From Deltaproteobacteria bacterium (GTDB taxonomy: Bacteria; Desulfobacterota; Syntrophobacteria; Syntrophobacterales; Syntrophobacteraceae), in the NCBI GenBank assembly GCA_012517315.1, contig JAAYVE010000055.1, positions 1 through 64,000 on the forward strand: a stretch of DNA of 64,000 bases. The letters are read 5' to 3'. Positions 1 to 13,467 of this stretch are shown here, in pieces. Numbering within the stretch: position 1 is the first letter of the stretch; each line of letters opens with the position of its first letter. Below the pieces are notes generated by a model. The model was given only the letters and a program-made list of their open reading frames with translations. It was not told the origin of the DNA and did no database searches. The translations under genes were made by a program, and so were the position numbers.

Positions 1-2832
1 GAGGAACAGGCCCTGGCGGAGGCCCGCAAATGCCTCGACTGCATGGTCTGTTGCGAATGCCTCCAGTGCGTGGATGCATGCCTTGCCAAGGCGATCATTC
101 ACAGTGATGAACCCGCAGTGAGAGAGATCCATGTGGGTGCGATCATACTGGCTGCCGGTTTTCAGGCCTTTGATCCTGCACGCTTTGAATCCTATTCGTA
201 CGCATCCCACCCAAACGTAGTAACGGCTTTTGAATTCGAACGGCTTCTGAGCGCAGGGGGACCCACTTCGGGACATCTGGAGCGTCCCTCCTCGATCCAG
301 CTGGACGGCCAAATTCGTCAGCTGGAAAACGAGTGGAGCAAGCTCCTGAAAACCTGCCGGCAGCTGGAGGAAAAGCACGGAACAACCACGCAGAAGATTG
401 CTCAGCAGTATTATGGTGCAACGCCAGAAGATCCTGAGATGGCTTTTTGGATGTCCTTGGCGGAGAAGGTCCGCAAGGTGGAACAGGAAATCGCCCGTCT
501 CAAAGAGAGGGCCGCTGCGGAGCACGAACCTAGAAAGATCGCATGGCTCCAGTGTGTGGGCTCAAGGGAAATCAACCGTTGCGACAACGGGTACTGTTCC
601 GGGGTCTGCTGCATGTATGCCATCAAGGAGGCCGTCATTGCCAAGGAGCATTCAAAGGAAGAGCTGGAAGCGGCCATTTTCTTCATGGACATGCGAACGC
701 ACGGCAAAGAGTTCGAGCAGTACTACGAAAGGGCCAGGGAAAATGGCATACGGTTCATCCGATCTCGCATCCACAGTGTCGAACCCTGTGCCGACTCGGA
801 CGACTTGCGTCTGGCCTATGTGACCGACTCAGGGAAAATGGTCGAAGAGGATTTCGACATGGTGGTCCTCTCGGTAGGTCTTGAATCGCCGCCGGGAATT
901 CAGGAATTGGCCCAAAGGCTCGGAATCGAGCTGGATCACTACAATTTCGCTCGCACCACCAGTTTTAACCCTGTTGAAACATCGAGGCCCGGAGTCTTCG
1001 TGTGCGGGGTCCTCCAGGGACCGAAGGACATACCGGTCTCGGTCATGGAAGCATCCGCTGCCGCCGGAGCAGCTGCAACTCGTCTTGCCGCCGCCCGCAA
1101 CACCCTGGTGAAAAAGAAGACATTCCCCGAAGAGCGCGATGTCAGTTCCGAGAAGCCTCGCATCGGGGTCTTTGTGTGCAATTGCGGTGTGAACATCTCC
1201 AGCGTGGTCCGTGTTCCTGAGGTGGCCCGCTATGCCGCTACCCTGCCTCATGTTGTATACGTTCAGGAGAATCTGTTTTCCTGCTCCCAGGATGCTCAAG
1301 ACCGCCTTGTGAGTGTCATCAAGGAACAGAACCTGAACCGGGTTGTCGTGGCTGCATGCTCACCGAGAACACACGAGCCCCTGTTTCAGGAGACGATGCG
1401 CAACAGCGGTCTGAACAAATATTTGTTTGAACAGGCCAACATTCGTGACCAATGCTCCTGGGTTCATGCAGGGGACCCGGACGCAGCGACGGAGAAGGCG
1501 AAAGATCTCGTTCGCATGGCGGTTTCCCGGGCAGCCCTCATCGAACCCCTGCCCATGCCCTCCGTCCCGGTAACTCCAGCTGCGCTGATCGTCGGAGGCG
1601 GAATCGCCGGCATGGTCGCCGCCCTCACCCTTGCCCGCCAGGGGTTCAAGGCCCACATCATCGAAAAAAAGGGTTTCCTGGGAGGCCATGGCCGCAAGGT
1701 CCGCACCACCTGGAAGGGCGAAAGCGTGGAGGAATTCCTGGCAGACCTCGTGAAGGAAGTGAACGGGCACCCCGACATCGAGGTGTATCTCAACTCCGAG
1801 GTCACAGCCTCTTCCGGTTATGTGGGAAACTTCCGCTCGGTCATCACATCGGGGGACGGAGCGGGTATCCGGGAACTGGAGCATGGGGTGACCATCCTTG
1901 CCACCGGCGCCCACTCCCTCAAGCCGGACGAGTACCTCTACGGGAAGAACGGGCGCGTGTTCCGCTGGCATGAATTGGATGAGGCCTGGGACCAGGATCT
2001 GGTGAAAAACGCCCAGTGCGCGGTGTTCATCCAGTGCGTGGGATCCCGGGAACCTCAACGTCCACACTGCAGCCGCATCTGCTGCACCTTTTCCGTACAG
2101 AAGTCCATCGAGCTCAAGGAACGCAACCCGGAGATGGATGTTTACATCCTCTACAGAGACATGCGCACCTATGGTGAACGGGAAGACCTCTACAGAGAAG
2201 CCCGACGCCGGGGGGTGCTCTTCATTCGATACGATCTGGAAAACAAACCCGAGGTGCAGGAGACGGAGAGTGGGGGGCTGGAAGTGACGGTGATCGACCA
2301 TGTGCTCCAGCGTCCCGTCGTGCTCAAACCGGATTTCGTCACCCTGGCAACCGCCATCGAAACCCGCGACATCGAGCAGTTGGCTCAGCTTTTCAAGGTT
2401 CCTGTGAGCCAGGACAGTTTTTTCCTGGAAGTCCACATGAAGCTCAGGCCGGTGGACTTCGCCACAGACGGAGTTTTCGTGTGCGGCCTCGCCCACTACC
2501 CCAAGCCCATCGACGAAAGTATCGCCCAAGCCCAGGCGGCGGCGGCCCGAGCGGCGACCATCCTTGCGCAGAAAAGCATCGACGTGGACGGGGTGGTGGC
2601 CCATGTGGACCAATCCCTCTGCCGGGGCTGCGGAAAGTGCGTTGAAGTATGCCCTTATGGGGCTCCCCGGTTGACGGAAATCGGCGAGGACATGCGCATT
2701 TCCGAAATCCAGGAGGCCCTTTGCAAGGGGTGCGGTGCCTGTGCCGTTGCCTGCCCTACCGGAGCGGCGGCCATTCGACATTTCAACGACCGGGAGGTCC
2801 TCACCATGGTCGAGGCAGCCCTGTGCAAGTGA
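1..2832 (+). CDS. HdrA-like flavin/iron-sulfur protein HdrA1 (5' end outside window)
   Basis: The reading frame is open from the first base, so the N-terminus is missing; 943 residues are visible. It is a double-lobed HdrA-type protein, expected to be a cytoplasmic electron-transfer subunit carrying FAD and [4Fe-4S] clusters. Visible residues 11-28 form a dense Cys cluster (CLDCMVCCECLQC). The first lobe has the HdrA motifs QCVGSRE and CSGVCCM and ends near residue 370. The second lobe repeats the family plan: IGVFVCNCG at its start, a GxGxxG FAD motif (VGGGIAGM) near 530, QCVGSRE again near 680, and two ferredoxin-like clusters (CRGCGKC, CKGCGAC) near 880-930. Residues about 101-175 are a charged, heptad-like stretch absent from ordinary HdrA. 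The two lobes match the separate downstream proteins HdrA2 and HdrA3, so this is the fused form. Family assignment is strong; the donor and acceptor are not known from sequence. Confidence 0.85.
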   Translation, partial: EEQALAEARKCLDCMVCCECLQCVDACLAKAIIHSDEPAVREIHVGAIILAAGFQAFDPARFESYSYASHPNVVTAFEFERLLSAGGPTSGHLERPSSIQLDGQIRQLENEWSKLLKTCRQLEEKHGTTTQKIAQQYYGATPEDPEMAFWMSLAEKVRKVEQEIARLKERAAAEHEPRKIAWLQCVGSREINRCDNGYCSGVCCMYAIKEAVIAKEHSKEELEAAIFFMDMRTHGKEFEQYYERARENGIRFIRSRIHSVEPCADSDDLRLAYVTDSGKMVEEDFDMVVLSVGLESPPGIQELAQRLGIELDHYNFARTTSFNPVETSRPGVFVCGVLQGPKDIPVSVMEASAAAGAAATRLAAARNTLVKKKTFPEERDVSSEKPRIGVFVCNCGVNISSVVRVPEVARYAATLPHVVYVQENLFSCSQDAQDRLVSVIKEQNLNRVVVAACSPRTHEPLFQETMRNSGLNKYLFEQANIRDQCSWVHAGDPDAATEKAKDLVRMAVSRAALIEPLPMPSVPVTPAALIVGGGIAGMVAALTLARQGFKAHIIEKKGFLGGHGRKVRTTWKGESVEEFLADLVKEVNGHPDIEVYLNSEVTASSGYVGNFRSVITSGDGAGIRELEHGVTILATGAHSLKPDEYLYGKNGRVFRWHELDEAWDQDLVKNAQCAVFIQCVGSREPQRPHCSRICCTFSVQKSIELKERNPEMDVYILYRDMRTYGEREDLYREARRRGVLFIRYDLENKPEVQETESGGLEVTVIDHVLQRPVVLKPDFVTLATAIETRDIEQLAQLFKVPVSQDSFFLEVHMKLRPVDFATDGVFVCGLAHYPKPIDESIAQAQAAAARAATILAQKSIDVDGVVAHVDQSLCRGCGKCVEVCPYGAPRLTEIGEDMRISEIQEALCKGCGACAVACPTGAAAIRHFNDREVLTMVEAALCK

Positions 2833-3042
2833 CTTCCATCGGCTTCCCCGTTCGGCACCTTTCGTGAGATGGGGAAGGCGCGGAAAGACGTGGAAACAAC
2901 GGTTTCCGCTCTCAAAATGGTGAGCCGACAGCAGGGGGGACTCGTCACGACTTGGGTCATTCTCTCAGATTCCGGTCACCTTCAGGACAAGGGGAAACGA
3001 GGAGTGAGTTCCTGCGGGGCATCAAGGGAGGGAGAGTAAATC

Positions 3043-3462
3043 ATGTCAGCGGAGTTCGAGCCGAGAATCGTCGCCTTTTGCTGCAACTGGTGCGCCTATG
3101 CCGGGGCCGACTTGGCCGGCGTGAGCCGGTTGCAGTATCCTCCCAACATTCGGGTGATCCGGGTCATGTGCTCGGGCCGGATCTCGCCGGATTTCATCCT
3201 CAAGGCTTTCCAGCTGGGGGCGGATGGGGTCCTCATCAGCGGCTGACACATTGGTGACTGCCATTACCTGGACGGTAATGAGAAAGCCAGCCGCACCGTG
3301 GAAATGACCCGCGAACTCCTCGCCCTCATGGGCATCGACAACGAGCGCCTGGCCCTCGAATGGGTTTCATCTGCAGAAGGCGCGCGCTTCGCTCGAATCG
3401 TGACCGATTTCACCAACAAGATCAAATCAATCGGGAAGTCTCCATTGGGGGTGGCTGCATGA
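3043..3462 (+). CDS. MvhD/FlpD-family iron-sulfur subunit, selenoprotein (Sec68)
   Basis: MvhD carries a [2Fe-2S] cluster and passes electrons between a hydrogenase or other donor and HdrA. A strong ribosome site (GGAGGGAGAG) precedes ATG 3043. Translation meets TGA at 3244-3246 (codon 68), and the same frame then runs on to TGA 3460-3462, giving 139 residues, the normal size of the family. The TGA falls in [17 protein letters not shown], where relatives have GCHxGDCHY, so it replaces a conserved cluster Cys. Other ligand-type residues are C13, C14, C17, C43 and C73. A 7-bp stem with a 5-nt loop lies at 3262-3280, correctly placed for a bacterial SECIS. The stop overlaps the ATG of the next gene (ATGA). 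Read as a plain stop, the product would be a useless 67-residue fragment. Sec insertion is inferred from sequence. Confidence 0.9.
3262..3280 (+). promoter_or_regulatory. SECIS-like hairpin for MvhD1
   Basis: CATTACC (3262-3268) and GGTAATG (3274-3280) are perfect complements around the loop TGGAC. The stem starts 15 nt after the TGA at 3244-3246, in the range known for bacterial SECIS elements read by SelB, and the loop contains GG. The hairpin lies inside the coding sequence, as is normal in bacteria. No folding energy was calculated. Confidence 0.75.
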
Positions 3463-4580
3463 GCATCGAAGAAGCCATCAAGGCCTACCAGACCTATTAC
3501 TGCCTGGATTGCGGCGTATGCACGGGAAGTTGTCCCGTCTCCAGGGTCAACCCCGGTTTTTCACCCCGCCTGATGGTGGAAAAGGCGCTGCTGGAACTGG
3601 GCGAAGAACTGCTTCAGGACCGTGAGCTCTGGTCCTGCCTCACCTGCAGCCGCTGCTTCGAGCGGTGTCCGACCCATATCAATTTCCCCGAGTTCATGCG
3701 AAGGATTCGGGAAGAAGCCACCCGGAGAGGCTTCGGCCCTGTTCTTGCCCATCACGGGATGCTCCAGAGTGTCATGGAGCTGCAAACCCAGGGAATCCAC
3801 CAGAAGAAGACTCAATGGGCCAGGGAATCCGGCCGCATTGCAGAATCGGGGGACATCTTTTTTTTCGTGGGCTGCATGCCCTATTTCCAGGTCATCTTCC
3901 GAGATATCGGCGTGGACAGCCTCTCCATCAGCCGCAGGGTAATCAAGGTTCTCAACGCAGCGGGAATCGAACCCATCGTGTCCGACGACGAGGTGTGCTG
4001 CGGTCATGACATGTTGTGGAACGGAAAAACGGAGGTCTTTCTGCAGCTGGCCCGGCGCAACGTAGAGGTGATCCGCAGCTCGGGGGCGAAGCAGGTGGTT
4101 TTCAACTGTCCCGAGGGGTACCACCTGTTCCGGAATTTCTATCCAGAGTACTTGGGTCCCCTGGATTTCGAGGTGGTGCATTTTTACGATTTCGTGGAAA
4201 GGTTGCTTGCCGAAGGCCGCATCGCACTGGGCAATGGTGGAGGGGTCTACACGTACCATGATCCCTGCCGTCTCGGGAGGATGGCCCGCATTTTCGACAG
4301 CCCCAGGGGCATTCTGGCACAAATCCCCGGGGGTGAAGTGGTGGAGATGGAGAGAAACCGGGAGAACGCTCTTTGCTGCGGCACGAGCGGCTGGGCGAAC
4401 TGTTCCGTCGGTTCCAAGCAGATCCAGGTGGAACGTCTCAAGGAGGCAAAAGCCACGGGGGCTCACACCCTGGTCACCGCCTGCCCCAAGTGCCAGATCC
4501 ACCTGACCTGCGCACTCAGCAACATGAACCTGGATCTGAAAATCGCAGACCTGACCACCCTCATCGCGGACGGGGTCTGA
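3459..4580 (+). CDS. HdrD-like protein: HdrC ferredoxin domain fused to HdrB CCG domains
   Basis: This 373-residue protein would be the disulfide-reducing or acceptor-binding arm of the Hdr complex. The HdrC-type part has two [4Fe-4S] motifs, C15/C18/C21/C25 and C60/C63/C66/C70. The HdrB-type part has two CCG-like repeats: VGCMPYF with VCCGHDMLW and FNCPEG, then YHDPC with LCCGTSGW and ACPKC. In methanogens the paired CCG motifs bind the two unusual [4Fe-4S] clusters that cleave CoM-S-S-CoB; bacteria have no such disulfide, so the substrate here is unknown. ATG 3459 overlaps the MvhD1 stop by 3 bases, implying translational coupling. HdrB and HdrC are separate genes in most HdrABC systems, while HdrD is naturally fused. 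Confidence 0.88.
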   Translation: MSIEEAIKAYQTYYCLDCGVCTGSCPVSRVNPGFSPRLMVEKALLELGEELLQDRELWSCLTCSRCFERCPTHINFPEFMRRIREEATRRGFGPVLAHHGMLQSVMELQTQGIHQKKTQWARESGRIAESGDIFFFVGCMPYFQVIFRDIGVDSLSISRRVIKVLNAAGIEPIVSDDEVCCGHDMLWNGKTEVFLQLARRNVEVIRSSGAKQVVFNCPEGYHLFRNFYPEYLGPLDFEVVHFYDFVERLLAEGRIALGNGGGVYTYHDPCRLGRMARIFDSPRGILAQIPGGEVVEMERNRENALCCGTSGWANCSVGSKQIQVERLKEAKATGAHTLVTACPKCQIHLTCALSNMNLDLKIADLTTLIADGV

Positions 4581-4619
4581 CGGCATCGGCATGATCATTT
4601 GACGGGAACGAGGTGTATC

Positions 4620-6152
4620 GTGAGCAACGACGTTTTGGTCATCGGAGGCGGGATCGCCGGAATTCAGGCGGCTTTGGACCTGGCTGAAATGGGCATTCAG
4701 GTGCACATGGTGGAGAGGCTCCCCAGCATCGGCGGCAAAATGGCCCAGTTAGACAAGACCTTTCCCACCAACGACTGCGCCATCTGAATTCTCTCGCCCA
4801 AGCTGCTGGATGTCGGTCGACATCCCCGAATCAATCTCCTGGCTTACAGCGAGGTGGAACAGGTCAGCGGTGAAGTGGGGGCTTTCCAGGTAGCGGTGCG
4901 CAAGAAGGCCCGTTATGTCAACGAAAACCTCTGCACCGGCTGTGGGGCGTGTGCGGAGAAGTGTCCCACCATGGTGGTGGATGTTTTCAATGCAGGCCTG
5001 GGCAATCGTAAGGCCATTTACAAGTATTTTCCCCAGGGCATCCCTTCCGTTTTCACCATCGACGCAGCCGCCTGCCGCCAACTGGGGCAGGGGAAGAAGT
5101 GCGGCGTGTGTGCAAAGGTCTGTCAGGCCAAAGCCGTTGACTACGATCAAAAGGACACACTCATCCAACTGGAGGTGGGGGCGGTCGTCATCGCCACCGG
5201 CTACGAGGTTTTCGATCCCTCGGTCATCCCCGAATACGGGTACGACCGCATCCCCAATGTGGTGACGGCCCTGGAGTTTGAGCGCCTACTGAGCGCGAGC
5301 GGCCCCACGGCAGGGCACCTGGACCGGCCGTCGGAATTGGCCTTGGTCAAGGAAATGGAAGAGGCTGAGAAAGAGCACAAAAAGCTTCAGCGCCAGGTGA
5401 GCCAACTGGAGGAGAAGCACGGAAAACCGTCATCTGAGATCGTCGCCGCGTTTCAATCGGGTACGTTACCGGACGATGCGGACCTGCGGAACTGGGCTCT
5501 TCTCGCCCAGGATCTGGCCTCCCTTGAGGCACGACTGGATTCCATGAACCGCCGCAAGGCCACCGCCTCGGTTGCTCGAAAGCTCGCTTTCATCCAGTGT
5601 GTGGGTTCAAGGGACTTCCGCTTCAACCCCTTCTGTTCGTCCTACTGCTGCATGCATTCCGTCAAGGAAGCGATGATCGCCCACGAGCACGACAACGGCG
5701 TCCACTCTTCCATATTTTGCATGGACCTTCGCGCAGTGGGGCGGGGATTCGAGGAATACAAACTCCGGGGGGGCAAGCAGGCCAACATCCGGTATATACG
5801 CGGGCGGGTGGCGGAAATCACACAGGATGAGGCGCTCAACCCCGTGGTTTGGTATGAATCCACCCAGAATCGGCAGGTCGTGCACGAAACCTTCGACCTG
5901 GTGATTCTCGCCACGGCATGCGTTCCATCCCCCGGCGCCGCGGAACTGGCCCGCCAGTTTCAGGTGGAATTGGACCGCAACGGTTTCTTCAAAACGGACC
6001 CACTGGCTCCCCTCAACACTAGTCGACCTGGTGTTTTCGTGTGCGGATGTGCCCAGGGCCCCATGGACATCCCTGAATCCGTGGCCCAGGCCAGCAGCGC
6101 GGCTGCCCGTGCGGCCGAAATTGTCGCCCCTGCCAGGCAGGCGGTTGGGTGA
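4620..6152 (+). CDS. HdrA2, Sec-containing HdrA lobe (Sec56)
   Basis: GTG 4620 with GAGG upstream begins a 510-residue protein if TGA 4785-4787 (codon 56) is decoded as Sec. The N-terminal FAD motif [14 protein letters not shown] is followed by [22 protein letters not shown]; canonical HdrA has Cys at the U position. Two iron-sulfur sites follow: C105/C108/C111/C115 and C152/C161/C164/C168. Then come QCVGSRD, the CCMHSVKEA element and the closing [13 protein letters not shown] motif. Residues about 240-318 are a charged coiled-coil-like insertion between the RPS element and the QCVGSRD strand. The usual HdrA N-terminal domain and C-terminal ferredoxins are missing; they are supplied by the next gene, HdrA3. 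HdrA is a known selenoprotein in methanococci, so Sec here has precedent. Confidence 0.9.
4808..4825 (+). promoter_or_regulatory. SECIS-like hairpin for HdrA2
   Basis: GGATGTC (4808-4814) pairs perfectly with GACATCC (4819-4825) around the loop GGTC. The stem starts 20 nt after TGA 4785-4787. The loop GGUC resembles the G/U apical loop recognised by SelB. Distance, stem length and loop agree with the bacterial SECIS pattern. Confidence 0.78.
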
Positions 6153-6169
6153 TGACGTGAGGTGTCAAA

Positions 6170-7849
6170 TTGAGTGACCAGATTCGTATTGGAGTGTTTG
6201 TCTGCGATTGCGGGAGCAACATCGCGGGATACGTGGATGTGAAGGCATTGGCGGAGTATGCCAAGACCCTGCCCAACGTCGTCTACGTCAAGGAGAACCT
6301 GTACACCTGTTCCGAGAGCGGGATCAACGAGATCAAGGCCGCCATTCGGGAGCAGAGTCTCAATAGGGTGGTGGTGGCATCCTGCACGCCCCGCACTCAT
6401 GAACCCCTCTTCCGGGGGACCTGCGAGGAGGCCGGACTCAACCCCTATCTCTTCGAAATGGTGAACATCCGGGACCAGTGTTCCTGGGTGCACATGCAGG
6501 AACGGGAATCAGGAACCAACAAGGCAAAAGACCTCATCCGCATGGGTGTGGCCAAGGCGGCACTGCTGGAACCGCAGGAATCCATCAAGTCGGAAATGGA
6601 TCCCAATGCCCTGGTCATGGGCGGGGGAATCAGCGGTATGACCGCCGCCCTCGCCCTCGCCAACCGGGGCTATCAGGTTTACCTGGTTGAGAAGCAGGCC
6701 CAGCTCGGCGGTCTTCTTCTCCAATTGGACACGCTGGGGCCCTCCGGTGTGGATGCGGCCGCTTTTGCCGCAAGCCAGGCGGAGCTCGTCCGCAACCACC
6801 CTCGGATCCGACTCATGACTTCCACCCAGGTGAAAGATATCAGCGGGTACATCGGGCATTTCAAGGTCACGACGGCCAGCGACGGGAAGGAGGAGCAATT
6901 CGGGGTCGGCGTGGTCATCGTCGCCACAGGAGCCCAGATTCTCAAGCCTCACGGCCTGTTCGGCTATGACGGCGAGCGAGTGATCACTCAGCTAGAGCTG
7001 GAAGCCCGTTTCAAGAGGGGAACCTTTTCCGCCGGGAACGTCGTCATGATCCAATGCGCCGGTGCGCGCATCGAGGAGCGAAAGTACTGTTCCCGCATCT
7101 GCTGTATGGTGGCCCTGAAAAATGCCATCCAAATCAAGGAAACACACCCCGGCACAGGTGTCCGCGTACTCTACCGGGACATCCAGGCTTACGGGACGGA
7201 GAACGAAGAGATGTACCGCCGTGCCAGGGAACTGGGGGTCATCTTCATCAACTACGATGTGAACGTGCCGCCCAAGGTGCATGGGGAAAAGGTCACGGTC
7301 ACCCACCAACTGCTGGGGAGGGAACTGGATCTCCCGGCGGACCTGGTTGTCCTGTCGACACCGCTCATCGCCGGGGAGGACAACGAAGCCATTTCCAAGT
7401 TGCTCCGCGTTTCCCTGGATGAAAACAAGTTCTTTCTGGAAGGCCACGTGAAACTCAAGCCGTTGGATTTTGCCACGGACGGGGTGTACCTGTGCGGCAA
7501 CGCCCACTACCCTGCAACGGTGCGGGAAGCAATCTCCCAAGCCCTGGGCGCTGCGTCCCGGGCGTCCATTCCCTTGGCCAAGGGGGTGATGACGGTCGAG
7601 CCCATTGTCTCGACGCTGGTGGATGAGGACGCCTGCCGCGGTTGCGGCCTTTGTGTGGCCCTTTGCCCCTACGGTGCCCTGGAGATCGTCCGGACGGAAA
7701 AGGGACGTAAAGTGAGAGTGATTCCCGTGGCATGCAAGGGCTGCGGCGTGTGTGCCGCCACCTGCTATCAGCACGCCCTGTCCATCAACTCTTACACTGA
7801 CAGGCAGATCGCGGAGCAGATCAGCGCGTGTCTCGAGTCGTCAGGATAA
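6170..7849 (+). CDS. HdrA3, second HdrA lobe with C-terminal ferredoxin domain
   Basis: This 559-residue protein starts at TTG 6170 with GAGG upstream, 17 nt after HdrA2. It opens with the HdrA N-terminal domain (IGVFVCDCG, SCTPRTHEPLF, RDQCSWVHM). An FAD motif (VMGGGISGM) follows near residue 145, then the CSRICCM element near 305. The C-terminal end has two [4Fe-4S] motifs, CRGCGLC and CKGCGVC, near 485-535. The FPTxDCxxC iron-sulfur insertion of a full HdrA is absent, so it complements HdrA2. Together the pair equals the fused architecture of HdrA1, and it also resembles the QmoA/QmoB split of sulfate reducers. It probably receives electrons through the C-terminal ferredoxin clusters and bound FAD. 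Confidence 0.85.
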   Translation: MSDQIRIGVFVCDCGSNIAGYVDVKALAEYAKTLPNVVYVKENLYTCSESGINEIKAAIREQSLNRVVVASCTPRTHEPLFRGTCEEAGLNPYLFEMVNIRDQCSWVHMQERESGTNKAKDLIRMGVAKAALLEPQESIKSEMDPNALVMGGGISGMTAALALANRGYQVYLVEKQAQLGGLLLQLDTLGPSGVDAAAFAASQAELVRNHPRIRLMTSTQVKDISGYIGHFKVTTASDGKEEQFGVGVVIVATGAQILKPHGLFGYDGERVITQLELEARFKRGTFSAGNVVMIQCAGARIEERKYCSRICCMVALKNAIQIKETHPGTGVRVLYRDIQAYGTENEEMYRRARELGVIFINYDVNVPPKVHGEKVTVTHQLLGRELDLPADLVVLSTPLIAGEDNEAISKLLRVSLDENKFFLEGHVKLKPLDFATDGVYLCGNAHYPATVREAISQALGAASRASIPLAKGVMTVEPIVSTLVDEDACRGCGLCVALCPYGALEIVRTEKGRKVRVIPVACKGCGVCAATCYQHALSINSYTDRQIAEQISACLESSG

Positions 7850-8009
7850 ACGCGGTATCGAGGGCACGAGAGTTTTGGTTTGTGGTTTTTTCGCCCTTCA
7901 CAGTAGAAGGGTGCCCGGGATGGTCTCCCTCCCCAGGGAAATACTCCTGGGCTTGAGGGAAGGGATGACTCAGAGACTAGAACTCTTGACACTGACGGAG
8001 GTGGAGGGA

Positions 8010-8798
8010 ATGTCCGATTTTACACCGAAGATCCTGGTGTTCTGCTGCACATGGTGAGGCTACGCCGCGGCAGACTTCGCTGGAGTTTCCAGGATGCAAT
8101 ACACTACGGATGCTCGCATTATCCGTATCATGTGTACCGGCCGGGTCGATCCCACTATGATATCCGACGCCTTCCTCAAGGGGGCCGACGGTGTGATGGT
8201 CGTGGGCTGTCATTTCGGGGACTGCCATTACATCACGGGCAACTATCAGGGAAAGATCAAGGTGGGGATCGCGGCCCGCGCCCTTGACTACGTGGGTCTC
8301 AACCCAAAGCGCGTGTTCTTCGGGCAGTGCTCTTCCGCCGAAGGGGAACGTTTCGTCAAGATGGTGACCGATTTCGACAAGGACATCCGCGAGATTGGCC
8401 CCCTCGGGACGGGAGACCGCCTCCCACCCCCCCAGCTCCATGAGAAGATCGAGGTAGCTCACACGGCGCTCGCCAAGGAAAAAATCCGCTGGGTGGTGGG
8501 AAAATTCACCGAGTTCACCACCAAGGGAAACAAATACGGAGAGCGATTCACAGAACACGAAATGTGGCGGACTCTGGACACCATCGTCATGGATGAGGTG
8601 GCCACCTATGAAATCATGAGAGAACTGAACCGAGGCCCCGTATCGGTGAAGACCCTATCCTCAAGGCTCAAGCTTCCCTCAGCCCACGTGTTGAAATACG
8701 TCTTGGCTTTGCAGCGTAGAGGGTTTGCAGAGCTTGCGGGCATCGAGGGGACCTCCCCTCTGTACCGTATCGCCCGGCAGCAGGTCGATGCAGCATAG
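8010..8798 (+). CDS. MvhD2 iron-sulfur subunit, selenoprotein (Sec16), with C-terminal extension
   Basis: ATG 8010 (GGAGG upstream) runs through TGA 8055-8057 (codon 16) to a stop at 8798, giving 262 residues. The start FCCTW-U-GYAAAD matches [12 protein letters not shown] of MvhD1, so the UGA replaces a cluster Cys, here at a different site from MvhD1. C12, C13, C42, C67 and C72 are present. The MvhD domain ends near residue 130. The remaining 130 residues are not part of normal MvhD; about 185-255 (VATYEIMREL, SRLKLPSAHVLKYV, LQRRGFAEL) looks like a winged-helix fold, which is inference. A start codon downstream of the UGA would remove the conserved cysteines, so Sec readthrough is the sensible reading. 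A stem-loop follows at 8080-8092. Confidence 0.88.
8080..8092 (+). promoter_or_regulatory. SECIS-like hairpin for MvhD2
   Basis: CTGGA (8080-8084) and TCCAG (8088-8092) pair around the loop GTT, starting 22 nt after TGA 8055-8057. The stem is shorter than those of the other two genes, but spacing and the G/U loop fit a bacterial SECIS. Confidence 0.6.
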
Positions 8799-8834
8799 GT
8801 TTTCATGCTTCCACACTTTCGGGAGGATGCAATT

Positions 8835-10511
8835 GTGCCAGGAAATCGCGTGATCATATTCGGAGGTGACCCGGCCGGCTTGGCTGCGGCGCTCCAGCAG
8901 GCCGAGGCCGGAAAAGAAGTCACCCTTGTGGAGCCTTCCCCGAGCCTGGGAGAGGGGGGACGAATCCCCCAGACTCGTGTCGTGGAGGGGGGGCTGCCTG
9001 TGGAGGACGTGAACCTCGAAGCCGTCCGCCGTCATCCCAATATCCGGGTCATCACCAACGCAACGATTGAAAGGGTGAGGAATTCCAACGGCGCTTACCA
9101 ATTTCGCATCAGGCGGCGTTCTCCAAGGGTTCATGCGGACAGGTGCAACGACTGCAAGGCATGCATCCGGGTGTGCCCCGTGCATATGTATGACGATTTC
9201 AACGAGGGACTGGGATTCCGCACCGCCATCGACTATTTCAACCCCAAAACGGGGGAATACAACATCTTCAAGGAAGATATGCCCATCTGCCAGGCCACCT
9301 GTCCCGCCAACCTGGACATCCGGTCCTACGTAGGGCTCATCGCCGATGGCAAATATGCCGAATCCTTGGCCAAGATTCGGGAAAGGCTCCCCTTTGCCCT
9401 TTCCATCGGCAGAGTTTGTCCTCACCCCTGCGAGACGGCATGCAACCGAGGTCTGATGGACCAGCCCATTTCCATTTGCACCCTCAAGCGTTTTGTGGCC
9501 GACTGGGAAATGAACCATCAGATCCCAGCTCCCGTCGAGGTACCCGACACTTTCCACCCCGAGCGGGTGGCCATCATCGGGGCCGGCCCGGCGGGACTCA
9601 CCTGCGGGTATTTCCTGGCAAAGGCAGGTTACAGGTCGGTTTGTTTTGAAGCGCTACCCGAACCGGGCGGTATGTTCCGGTACGGCATACCTGAATACCG
9701 CCTCCCCACCCCCACTCTCATGCACGAAATCGATTGGATCCTGTCCCACGGGGTGGAACTGCGTTGCAACGTGCGCATCGGCCGCGATATCGCCTTCGAA
9801 GACCTGCTTAGGGAATTCGATGCCGTCTTCATCGGTGTGGGAGCGCACAAAGGGATGAAGCTGCAGATCAAGGGCGAGGACATGGAAGGGGTCATAGACG
9901 GGGTCGATTTCCTCCGGGACGCGAACATGGGAAAACCCATCAACGCGAAAGGCAAAGTCATCATCATCGGGGGCGGCAACGTGGCCATGGACGCAGCCCG
10001 CGTCAGCTGGCGGGAAGGATTCGAGGAAGTCCACATACTCTACCGGAGAACCAAGAGGGAGATGCCGGCGAGCCCTTGGGAAATTGAAGCCGCCGAGCAC
10101 GAGGGGATCAAGATTCAGTACCTCGTGGCCCCCATTGAGGTCCTGGGAGAAAACGGCCGCATGACCGGACTCAAATGCCTGCGCATGGAACTGGGGGAAC
10201 CCGACGCCAGCGGCCGGCGCAGACCGGTCCCCATCGAGGGCTCCGAATTCGTGGTGGAGGCGGAAACGCTCATACCCGCCATCGGCCAGAGGCCGGACAT
10301 TTCCTTTGTGCCGGAAGGCAGTGGGCTTGAGATCACCCGCTGGAGCACGTTCGCCGTGGACCGGGAGACCTTCATGACGAATGTGCCCGGAGTCTTTTGC
10401 GCGGGTGACGTGGAGACAGGGCCCGACATTGCCATCCGGGCGTGTGCCGGAGGCCGGAAGGCCGCCCTTGGAATCGTGAAGTACCTGGAGGCAAAGCGGC
10501 AGAGCAGATAG
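8835..10511 (+). CDS. HdrA N-lobe remnant joined to a GltD/NfnB-like NAD(P)H flavoprotein
   Basis: GTG 8835 is chosen because GGGAGG sits 8 nt upstream; an ATG at 8805 has no such site. The product is 558 residues. Residues 1-145 follow the HdrA plan: an altered dinucleotide motif (IFGGDPAGLAAA), then CNDCKACIRVCP, then a segment matching HdrA2 after its first cluster. The stretch around FPTNDCAIU is lost. From about 155 it is a GltD-type protein: CQATCPANLDI, VCPHPCETACNRG, FAD motif IIGAGPAGL, NADPH motif IIIGGGNVAMDAARVS, and the closing FCAGDVETGPD. Such proteins oxidise NAD(P)H or reduce NAD(P)+. In this operon it likely links the Hdr complex to pyridine nucleotides; that is inference. 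Confidence 0.85.
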   Translation: MPGNRVIIFGGDPAGLAAALQQAEAGKEVTLVEPSPSLGEGGRIPQTRVVEGGLPVEDVNLEAVRRHPNIRVITNATIERVRNSNGAYQFRIRRRSPRVHADRCNDCKACIRVCPVHMYDDFNEGLGFRTAIDYFNPKTGEYNIFKEDMPICQATCPANLDIRSYVGLIADGKYAESLAKIRERLPFALSIGRVCPHPCETACNRGLMDQPISICTLKRFVADWEMNHQIPAPVEVPDTFHPERVAIIGAGPAGLTCGYFLAKAGYRSVCFEALPEPGGMFRYGIPEYRLPTPTLMHEIDWILSHGVELRCNVRIGRDIAFEDLLREFDAVFIGVGAHKGMKLQIKGEDMEGVIDGVDFLRDANMGKPINAKGKVIIIGGGNVAMDAARVSWREGFEEVHILYRRTKREMPASPWEIEAAEHEGIKIQYLVAPIEVLGENGRMTGLKCLRMELGEPDASGRRRPVPIEGSEFVVEAETLIPAIGQRPDISFVPEGSGLEITRWSTFAVDRETFMTNVPGVFCAGDVETGPDIAIRACAGGRKAALGIVKYLEAKRQSR

Positions 10512-10615
10512 GGGGCATCAGCTCCACATACATTCCGGGTCTTACGGCGCCCCCCCTGAATGACCGTCGATGCGGGGGCCGCCCTCTTCACCAGAAAGAC
10601 ACAGGGATTCGTACC

Positions 10616-11503
10616 ATGATGTATGAAAAAAAGGGACGCTACATCGTTGAATTCCAGGATATCCCCAAGGCGCGGCAGCACCAGATCGAAATCGACGTAG
10701 AAGAGCGCCGTGGGAACTACAAGGAAGTGGAACTGGGTTTCGACGAGGAAAGGGCCTTGAATGAGGCCAAACGATGCCTCAGCTGCCGACGCTGTCTCGG
10801 CTGCGCCCTGTGCTGGGCTGAGTGCAAACCGGAAGCCATCGACTTCGAGATGGAAGACGAGGTTTTCGAACTGGAGGTCGATGACGTGATTGTCGCACCG
10901 GGAGTGGAACGCGACGTGGAACGGATCGGCAGGCATTTCGGCTTGGGGAGCCACCTCAATGTCGTCACCGACCTGCAGATGGAGCGGATGCTCAGTGACA
11001 CGGGTCCCAGCAGGGGGCTCGTGATCCGTCCCCTGGACGGGGAAATCCCCAAAAGGATCGCCTGGGTGCAGAGTTACGAATCCGCGTCACCCCCGATGCA
11101 CCGGGCAGCCCTCTGCCTGGCTGTGAACGAAGCCATTCAGGTGCACGGAAAAATCGAAGGGGCGTGCCTCCAGATTTTTTCCAGGAACATTCAGCCCTTC
11201 TTCACTGAAAACGAAAAGCTCGTTGCTGGACTCTCAGGATTCCGGATGGATGAGGGGGCGGTGGAGTCCCTGGAACCCCAGGATGACGGAAGTCTCAAAC
11301 TCACCCTGGCCATCAACGGAAATAAGGAGGAGAAGACCTTCGACCTAGTGGTTCTGCTGACACAGCCTCGCATATCCAAAGATGCCCAAGCCTTGGCCAA
11401 GAGCCTGGGAATGACTCTGAATTATGCTTCTTTCCTCGCCGGGGAGGACGGAGGTCTTCTCTCCACGGAGAAGGACAAGGTCCAACTGACGCCTGTTCGC
11501 TGA
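10616..11503 (+). CDS. degenerate HdrA C-lobe fragment
   Basis: The 295-residue product aligns with the second part of an HdrA lobe and with the visible start of HdrA1. FDEERALNEAKRCLSCRRCLGCALC corresponds in order to the Cys-rich linker at the start of the window. It continues with the NVVTDLQMERMLSDTGP element. Where HdrA has QCVGSRD and CSxxCCM, this protein has WVQSYESASPP and HRAALCLA, so those conserved Cys are lost. No coiled-coil insertion is present. With the preceding gene it looks like one HdrA lobe split by a GltD domain. The ribosome site is weak, and two in-phase ATGs (10616, 10619) are possible. It closes the operon; a structural or scaffold role is a guess. Confidence 0.75.
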   Translation: MMYEKKGRYIVEFQDIPKARQHQIEIDVEERRGNYKEVELGFDEERALNEAKRCLSCRRCLGCALCWAECKPEAIDFEMEDEVFELEVDDVIVAPGVERDVERIGRHFGLGSHLNVVTDLQMERMLSDTGPSRGLVIRPLDGEIPKRIAWVQSYESASPPMHRAALCLAVNEAIQVHGKIEGACLQIFSRNIQPFFTENEKLVAGLSGFRMDEGAVESLEPQDDGSLKLTLAINGNKEEKTFDLVVLLTQPRISKDAQALAKSLGMTLNYASFLAGEDGGLLSTEKDKVQLTPVR

Positions 11504-11850
11504 GCGGCGAAAAGGCTTTTTCTGATCTCATCGCCCAGCCCCCGTATGCCGACATCTCAACCTCCGCAGGTGTCAGGTGGGGGCTGTTTGTCTCCCTTTC
11601 CCCAACATCTGAGACCAACGTTTTCAAACATCTGCGCAACGGACGCCTCGGGGCCTTGCTCTCTCAACGACATCCCGACACGAGAATCCCGGAATCCCGA
11701 TTCCGGTGACGACGGAACTCCCAAATCCAGACTGTTGGTCTGCAGCTTTTCCAGTGGCATTCAGCTTTGCCCATTTCTTGCGTTGTGTTATAGAAAGCGA
11801 TCACCTGACGCGGAGAGGGCGAGGAGACCACACAAGAGAGGGCAGCGTTG
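11504..11850 (+). other. intergenic region with possible glgP promoter
   Basis: The 347-bp gap has no convincing gene. A candidate sigma-70 promoter lies at 11767-11794: TTGCCC, 16 nt, TATAGA. A purine-rich AGAGAGGG precedes the glgP ATG. No clear terminator for the upstream Hdr operon was seen. Confidence 0.4.
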
Positions 11851-13467
11851 ATGAAAGTTGCGTACTTCAGCATGGAGATCGGCCTGAACGAGAACATTCC
11901 CACATACAGCGGAGGTTTGGGAATCCTCGCCGGAGACCACATCAAGTCCGCCGCGGACCTGAATATCCCCCTTGTTGCCGTCACCCTCCTATATAAAAGG
12001 GGCTACTTCATCCAGACCATCAATCCTCTGGGGCAACAGGAAGAGCTCTACCCTTATTTCGACCCCCGGGCGTTCATGGAACCCCTTCCTTTCAAGGTCA
12101 CCATCAAAATCGAAGGCCGTGACGTCCATGTCGGTGTGTGGAAATATAACCAGGTGGGCATGAACGGGAGAGTCCCCGTCTATTTTCTCGACACCGACCT
12201 TCCCTTGAACGCTCCCGCCGACCGTCTCATCACTCAGTTTCTCTATGGCGGAGATCAGCACACCCGCATCTGCCAGGAGGCTGTTCTGGGTATTGGCGGC
12301 TACCTGGCTCTGAAGAAACTGGAACCCAACATCACCACTTTTCACATGAACGAGGGACATGCCGTTTTCCTCACCCTTGCACTCCTCAAGGACCTCGATG
12401 GAGACGTGCAGAAAGTGCGGGAAAAGTGCGTCTTCACCACCCACACTCCGGTACCCGCCGGTCACGACAAGTTCGCCTACGATCTGGCCGGGAGGCTTCT
12501 GGACGGCTACCTCCCCGCCAACATCAGGAACTTGGCCGGAGAAGACGTCCTCAACACGACGGTCCTCGCTCTGAATCTCTCCCGGGCGAGCAATGGCGTC
12601 AGTGAACTCCACGGGGAAATATCCCGTCAGATGTTTCCAGGGTTCAATATCGGCCACGTGACCAACGGCGTCCACCACTTGAGCTGGACCGGCCCGGAAT
12701 TCAAAGCCCTCTTCGACGCTTACCTTCCCAACTGGCGTCAGCAGCCGCAACTTCTCGCCGACGCCGACAAGATCCCCGACGACGCAGTCAAGGAAGCAAA
12801 GCTTCGCGCCAAGAAGCGTCTCATCAGCTATGTCAATTCCGTGACTGGGGCTGGCTTCACCCATGAACTTCTCACCATCTGTTTCGCTCGGAGAGCTGCC
12901 GCATACAAACGGGCCACCCTCATCTTCACCGATCTGGAATATCTCTCCAACCTCGCTTATGACCGCATTCAGCTGATCTTCGCGGGAAAAGCTCACCCAC
13001 AGGATCAGCCCGGAAAGCAGCTCATCAAGGAAATCGTCAACACGGCCGAGCAGTACGAAAAGCAGATTCGGCTGGTTTTCGTGCCCAACTACAGCATCTG
13101 GCTCGGGGCTCTTTTGACTCAGGGAACTGACGTCTGGCTCAACACGCCCCGCCGACCGCGAGAAGCCAGCGGCACCAGCGGCATGAAAGTCTGTTTCAAT
13201 GGGGGTGTCAACATGAGTGTGCTGGACGGGTGGTGGAGGGAAGGGTGCAAGAACCGAATCAACGGCTGGGCCATCGGAGATGACGAAGACCAGTCGGACG
13301 AGGAGGCAGCCGCCGACCTTTACCAGGATCTGGACGATCTTGTGACTACCTACTACGCCAATCCAAGGCAGTGGCTCTCCATCATGAAGCGGTCCATCGC
13401 CGATCTCACGCCGGTATTCAACACGCACCGGATGGTCATGGAGTACGTCCACAAGTATTATATGTAG
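11851..13467 (+). CDS. glgP: alpha-glucan (glycogen/maltodextrin) phosphorylase, short type
   Basis: This 538-residue cytoplasmic enzyme releases glucose 1-phosphate from alpha-1,4-glucans using phosphate and PLP. The N-terminus MKVAYFSMEIGL and the segment YSGGLGILAGDHIKSA are typical of the short bacterial/archaeal phosphorylases, which lack the long N-terminal regulatory part of E. coli GlgP. The catalytic segment EASGTSGMKVCFNGG contains the PLP-binding Lys (about residue 448). ATG 11851 is used rather than the TTG just before it. It is a single gene with no glycogen genes beside it, so its place in storage metabolism rests on family knowledge. It converges on the barnase/barstar pair. 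Confidence 0.93.
   Translation: MKVAYFSMEIGLNENIPTYSGGLGILAGDHIKSAADLNIPLVAVTLLYKRGYFIQTINPLGQQEELYPYFDPRAFMEPLPFKVTIKIEGRDVHVGVWKYNQVGMNGRVPVYFLDTDLPLNAPADRLITQFLYGGDQHTRICQEAVLGIGGYLALKKLEPNITTFHMNEGHAVFLTLALLKDLDGDVQKVREKCVFTTHTPVPAGHDKFAYDLAGRLLDGYLPANIRNLAGEDVLNTTVLALNLSRASNGVSELHGEISRQMFPGFNIGHVTNGVHHLSWTGPEFKALFDAYLPNWRQQPQLLADADKIPDDAVKEAKLRAKKRLISYVNSVTGAGFTHELLTICFARRAAAYKRATLIFTDLEYLSNLAYDRIQLIFAGKAHPQDQPGKQLIKEIVNTAEQYEKQIRLVFVPNYSIWLGALLTQGTDVWLNTPRRPREASGTSGMKVCFNGGVNMSVLDGWWREGCKNRINGWAIGDDEDQSDEEAAADLYQDLDDLVTTYYANPRQWLSIMKRSIADLTPVFNTHRMVMEYVHKYYM

Follow-up and report, generated by a model that had tools for sequence, protein, structure and literature searches.

The locus studied here raises the question of why an MvhD protein should carry a second domain, and whether this domain makes an electron-transfer selenoprotein into a redox sensor with a DNA-binding module, as a preliminary description of the sequence proposed, or is a part of the enzyme. 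The protein, MvhD2, is encoded in a 64,000-nt stretch of contig JAAYVE010000055.1 (the window). Its extra C-terminal part is real: residues 131-262 (8400-8798) lie beyond the Pfam FlpD domain (residues 8-130), the motifs first quoted for this region (VATYEIMREL and others) are present in the translation, and the expectation that an MvhD is normally of about 140 residues agrees with the matching solved MvhD chains, which have 129-141 residues. The gene and its parts are as follows.

8010..8798, + strand: MvhD2, a 262-aa selenoprotein with an FlpD domain and a C-terminal winged-helix module (translation, Pfam, full-length AF2 model)
8055..8057, + strand: in-frame TGA, the Sec16 codon of MvhD2 (translation; relatives' alignment; genome tRNA-Sec match)
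8031..8399, + strand: FlpD domain, MvhD2 residues 8-130 (Pfam PF02662, E 8.9e-48; Foldseek TMt 0.96 to 8rvu_F)
8400..8552, + strand: stalk of short helices with conserved RW..G and GN.YGE.FT motifs (34-sequence alignment; AF2 helices at extension residues 12-24, 27-34 and 36-41)
8553..8771, + strand: winged helix, extension residues 52-124, i.e. protein residues 182-254 (AF2, Foldseek, VIA)
8679..8717, + strand: recognition helix, extension residues 94-106 (AF2; helix-residue comparison)
8727..8771, + strand: two-stranded wing, extension residues 110-116 and 119-124 (AF2)

The FlpD domain scores 161.8 bits against PF02662 (curated cut-off 22.3), and the cysteine and selenocysteine positions of MvhD2 are conserved in the alignment, from which [2Fe-2S] binding and electron passage to HdrA are predicted. 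Residue 16 is encoded by TGA in 26 of 41 relatives, and the remaining 15 have no TGA. The assignment of Sec16 rests on this alignment and on a tRNA-Sec match (74.2 bits) in the MvhD2 genome, because a SECIS-like fold 3' of the TGA at 8055 was no better than in shuffled sequence (z +1.5); an Rfam search of window positions 1-12000, with E up to 1, returned no match.

Structure prediction gives the C-terminal domain of MvhD2 as a winged helix carried by a stalk of helices, in agreement with the fold originally suspected from its sequence pattern; AF2, comparison with PDB entries, ArsR/MarR profile matches and Pfam HTH models all support this fold. When the extension was modelled alone (pLDDT 85.6), the three stalk helices were followed by a long helix (52-77), by helices at 83-90 and 94-106, and by the two wing strands, that is, by the three-helix core and two-stranded wing of a winged helix, as was also found with VIA. 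The VIA alignments, which span mainly extension residues 54-129 with the stalk fold outside them, gave Z 11.2 and rmsd 2.3 Å over 72 residues to the Zalpha domain of ADAR1 (1qgp) and Z 11.1 to the ArsR homologue PH1932 (1uly). With Foldseek the best E value for the extension was 2.2e-3, none being below 0.001, and the domain is absent from solved structures. For the full-length protein AF2 gave a confidently packed model (pTM 0.86), in which the N-terminal half resembles MvhD chains from Hdr complexes (TMt 0.90-0.96).

Profile comparisons point the same way. As a single sequence the extension gave weak, sub-threshold HTH matches in Pfam (TrmB, E 0.0076; IclR, E 0.02), and TrmB, IclR and Rrf2 all fell below the curated cut-off for MvhD2, some relatives scoring higher; among the 34 aligned members, matches at E ≤ 0.05 were obtained for IclR in 24, TrmB in 21 and ArsR in 17. 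The profile of these 34 sequences matched ArsR/MarR-type regulators among solved chains, with E down to 2e-6. Neither an NCBIfam search with the extension alone nor Pfam yielded a family dedicated to it.

The domain is not confined to this genome. A search of 395 genomes of the phylum with the single extension sequence found matches in 85 (E ≤ 1e-3), and one with the extension profile in 142, the MvhD2 genome included (E ≤ 1e-6); among genome contigs, those that encode the fused protein bear the names Desulfobacterota/Deltaproteobacteria, Thermoplasmata, Methanophagales, Methanofastidiosia, WOR-3, Hydrothermota and Bacillota. In a sample of 40 profile matches (every fourth of the first 148 listed, giving 37, plus rows 105, 121 and 149) the domain lies directly behind FlpD in 35; the other five are four stand-alone forms (L129, L134, L137 and L172, the last a fragment of 54 residues at the end of a contig) and one partial form between HdrA and HdrD (L171). 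HdrA is encoded within the stretch in 38 of the 40, the exceptions being short contigs, L137 (HdrB and MetF) and L168 (NuoE and NuoF).

Three architectures are seen: the fusion of MvhD with the winged helix; a separate winged-helix gene of about 120 codons in hdrC-hdrB-wH-hdrA-mvhD-metV-metF operons, in which the GltD-bearing hdrA encodes some 1470 residues; and HdrA-FlpD-winged-helix proteins of about 810 residues adjoining NuoF, sometimes with NuoE and FrhB too. A Thermoplasmata archaeon contig (L074:1-10783) carries three tandem genes of the first type alternating with HdrA genes as a repeating bifurcation array. When 113 FlpD domains, of which 55 carry the winged helix, were placed in a tree, its presence and absence could be explained by 5 changes, as compared with a mean of 37.8 after shuffling, so the fusion appears to be old and stable; starred branches of this tree force just one change, many of its forks are unresolved and long branches are present.

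The neighbours of MvhD2 in the window are as follows.

43..2832, + strand: HdrA-type protein, truncated by the contig start
3043..3462, + strand: MvhD1, a plain MvhD without winged helix, with an in-frame TGA (probable Sec) at 3244-3246
3456..4580, + strand: HdrD-type protein (HdrCB fusion, CCG domains)
4596..6152, + strand: first half of HdrA2, start codon not settled, with an in-frame TGA (probable Sec) at 4785-4787
6170..7849, + strand: second half of HdrA2
8805..10511, + strand: type-III/HdrL-like HdrA with an inserted GltD domain, an NAD(P)H module (Pfam Pyr_redox_2 and Fer4_20; 48% identity to the GltD-bearing HdrA of L126)
10616..11503, + strand: remaining part of the type-III HdrA (relatives share 31-38% identity with the large HdrA of L126; no Pfam match at 1e-8)

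HdrA genes flank MvhD2 on both sides, the two halves of HdrA2 upstream (4596-7849) and the type-III HdrA downstream (8805-11503). The contig begins within the first HdrA gene, so that the 5' end of the operon and its promoter are absent and genes further upstream unseen; in the 64-kb window, tblastn at 1e-8 gave no match for NuoEFG, AOR, BamC, MetVF, FrhB, FdhA or MvhAG. The candidate input module of the MvhD2 locus is the GltD-bearing HdrA at 8805-11503.

The gene context of the domain separates it from hydrogenases. MvhA or MvhG matches were found in none of 81 winged-helix loci, that is, in 0/40 of the sampled loci and in 0/41 of a second set (L046-L085 plus L090), which may share records with the first (L055 and L150, of equal length and frame, look like one contig). 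MvhG was present in 22, and MvhA in 19, of 39 loci (L086-L125 minus L090, lower-ranked in the contig search) that we call mostly plain since their matches end at about residue 130-151, individual hidden winged helices being possible. NuoE/F, GltD or MetVF accompany 33/40 and 26/41 of the winged-helix loci, as compared with 9/39 of the mostly plain ones. In the MvhD2 genome itself, MvhG and MvhA each match in 1 of 13 plain-MvhD stretches, and NuoF, GltD or MetVF in 5 of 13. For the input-module genes, Fisher tests gave 1e-7 (33/40 vs 9/39) and 0.004 (33/40 vs 5/13), values to be read with the rows being related and the groups differing taxonomically. The idea that the winged helix occurs only where the hydrogenase has been lost was rejected, since in the same genome MvhA and MvhG are missing from the majority of plain-MvhD stretches as well; absence of the hydrogenase hence does not require the domain. 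Five archaeal loci (L080-L084) have the winged helix, but neither an NAD(P)H nor a MetVF module was found in them, and a strict NADH-module reading was therefore rejected as universal.

The MvhD subunits of HdrABC-MvhAGD-type complexes (5odc, 7bkb), whose partners are MvhAG or formate dehydrogenase according to the entry titles, share 43-46% identity with the FlpD domain of MvhD2 (TMt 0.90-0.91), but their chains of about 140 residues are without a C-terminal domain. BamF of the class II benzoyl-CoA reductase (Gmet_2083 of G. metallireducens) is an MvhD/FlpD subunit encoded after HdrA (BamE), as is MvhD2, and BamF-type genes beside AOR/BamB homologues encode the same C-terminal winged helix; MvhD2, too, combines FlpD with this domain in a gene that follows HdrA. 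One class of winged-helix loci, ordered HdrD-HdrA-MvhDwH-NuoE-NuoF-NuoG, matches the bamB-bamH gene order tabulated in PMC1924859, and upstream of BamF-type loci an aldehyde ferredoxin oxidoreductase (AOR, BamB homologue) and a BamC-like ferredoxin were found in 6/6 extended stretches (by Pfam for five of the AORs, by tblastn for the rest); L145 likewise encodes a partial AOR and a BamC-like ferredoxin. The MvhD2 locus differs in having no AOR, BamC or NuoEFG, and in having MvhD1, HdrD, a split HdrA2 and a GltD-type HdrA. Because the stoichiometry of the benzoyl-CoA reductase complex is given as (BC)2DEFGHI (PMC13328260), proteins of the BamF build are enzyme subunits.

The combination of FlpD with an HTH-like domain has been glimpsed before, since the 2007 table in PMC1924859 labels bamF 'hydrogenase, delta subunit; HTH mo'; in the open-licence literature this label is the sole published trace that we found, with no description of the domain as a family. 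The extension is thus in part a known MvhD-associated domain, an outcome that the preliminary description had named as counting against its proposal, but one that has no Pfam or NCBIfam family of its own.

Two further systems resemble the present one. The Moorella and Sporomusa MetVF-HdrABC-MvhD enzymes (PMC9430772) have the same gene set as the Desulfobacterota metVF operons, which carry the separate winged-helix gene before the GltD-bearing hdrA, whereas the available text of PMC9430772 describes six subunits of the methylene-THF reductase and no winged-helix subunit. The stand-alone protein encoded at L126:6758-7138, within an hdr-mvhD-metV-metF operon, is a candidate for a seventh subunit of the Hdr-type methylene-THF reductase. 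In Desulfobacterium autotrophicum (PMC2702500), HdrA/HdrL (GltD-like) genes are each followed by mvhD, several with Sec; a winged-helix extension is not mentioned there, 'winged' and 'C-terminal' having no occurrence in the main text.

On balance, we think it somewhat more probable than not that MvhD2 transfers electrons within a bifurcating complex built around HdrA, and that its winged helix, a domain found across many anaerobes in Hdr complexes with no [NiFe] hydrogenase encoded nearby, serves in docking or assembly. The domain would act through protein-protein contacts, seating MvhD on HdrA and docking or orienting an alternative electron-input module in the hydrogenase's place: the GltD-type HdrA at the MvhD2 locus, and NuoEF, MetVF or FrhB elsewhere. 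MvhD2 itself would relay electrons between HdrA2 and the product of the next gene, the GltD-bearing HdrA. The fusion to FlpD and the presence of HdrA in most sampled loci (35/40 and 38/40), the separate gene in metVF operons, the HdrA-FlpD-winged-helix fusions beside NuoF or FrhB, the frequency of NuoE/F, GltD or MetVF and the lack of MvhA and MvhG at winged-helix loci, the BamF-type enzyme subunits, the predicted fold and the hydrophobic residues at two recognition-helix positions argue for such docking; the lack of a solved structure with the domain, the plain-MvhD stretches of the same genome, the archaeal loci L080-L084, comparison sets that differ in taxonomy and contain related rows, and persistent Lys/Arg residues (see below) argue against it. 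Hdr-based electron bifurcation is central in anaerobic energy metabolism, and little is known, beyond the hydrogenase and formate-dehydrogenase complexes, of the way in which different donors connect to the shared HdrA/MvhD core. The conserved winged-helix module, characteristic of complexes that have no hydrogenase nearby, is a testable candidate for the joint between HdrA/MvhD and donor; the BamF class is among these complexes, and in Hdr-type methylene-THF reductase operons the module has its own gene.

Winged helices often act as protein-protein parts, which is also consistent with a more general role, in which the domain strengthens the Hdr complex, through the HdrA-MvhD contact or dimer formation, and docks no particular input, its link with NuoEF, GltD and MetVF reflecting lineage. 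That it accompanies very different input modules, including archaeal loci with none found, and that the FlpD tree shows few old lineages favour this account; its occurrence as a separate gene in MetVF operons and its absence from hydrogenase loci (0/81), however, suggest a tie to the type of input, and we consider the account possible, though rather doubtful.

A gene switch is a different matter. That MvhD2 senses redox state through a redox- or selenium-controlled DNA-binding module and regulates its own operon, in the manner of PutA-type moonlighting enzymes, would accord with the nearest folds and profiles being nucleic-acid binders (ArsR, MarR, Zalpha), with the basic residues in which the recognition helix ends, and with the stand-alone form, which resembles a small ArsR protein and matches HTH_20 above the cut-off. 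The extension has the winged-helix fold in common with ArsR/SmtB-type factors (CzrA, SmtB, HlyU, PH1932), with rmsd of about 2-3 Å over about 65 residues for PH1932 and CzrA, but, unlike these, is fused to an Fe-S protein, has its own stalk and is mostly hydrophobic at two DNA-facing helix positions. Position 98 is hydrophobic in 22/27 members, as against Ser in 3 of 4 ArsR-model matches of the same genome (compared by eye), and position 102 in 18/27; ArsR helices carry Ser/Lys at these positions. Lys/Arg is retained at positions 99, 106 and 107 in 18, 22 and 19 of 27 members, respectively, and MvhD2 itself has Leu98 and Leu102 but keeps Lys99, Arg106 and Arg107. Among fused members most wings are neutral or acidic, and the recognition helix of HdrA-fused members is not basic (net charge -1 to -2).

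The residues of the recognition helix and wing thus lean towards a protein surface over a DNA-binding one. BamF is part of an enzyme complex (PMC13328260), and access to DNA would be expected to be poor inside so large an assembly. We therefore regard regulation by MvhD2 as improbable: the domain is an old and widespread companion of HdrA and MvhD, is shared with BamF-type enzyme subunits and has a recognition helix in which residues are mostly hydrophobic at sites of Ser and Lys in ArsR proteins. Of the 'DNA- or protein-binding module' first proposed, the protein-binding half fits the enzyme-operon contexts better and the DNA-binding half is not supported. An arm that holds the enzyme together is more likely than a gene switch, because numerous anaerobic bacteria and archaea have the arm, next to the same enzyme genes; small stand-alone 'HTH' genes in Hdr operons may likewise encode enzyme subunits rather than regulators. 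A combined role, in which oxidised or unoccupied MvhD-winged-helix protein (or the stand-alone protein of metVF operons) would bind DNA and adjust the bifurcation operon that encodes it, appears very improbable; if it were true, an electron-transfer selenoprotein would read redox or selenium state directly.

The extension is conserved across alignments of 34 sequences (MvhD2 and 33 of 39 relatives, i.e. 34 of 40 available extensions, the six omitted being mostly near-copies) and of 27 (rows chosen), and its dN/dS is 0.06-0.22 in 8/8 close pairs, with dS saturated in some and FlpD lower in 6/8. Although MvhD is usually of about 140 residues, and the domain is missing from 16 of the 17 FlpD matches of this genome (E ≤ 10), MvhD2 alone having it, the reading of the extension as read-through, an assembly artefact or a degenerate, functionless domain is refuted to the point of being exceedingly improbable by phylum-wide matches, conservation over phyla and archaea, an open frame under purifying selection and identical architecture in independent assemblies.

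The other in-frame TGA codons of the operon lie in different settings. In the N-terminal frame of HdrA2 the codon at 4785-4787, in the context ...PTNDCAI(TGA)ILSPK..., probably encodes Sec at a cluster-ligand position, and ordinary ORF calling splits the gene there. That of MvhD1 falls at residue 68 (GUHIGDC) and that of MvhD2 at residue 16, i.e. at different cysteine sites.
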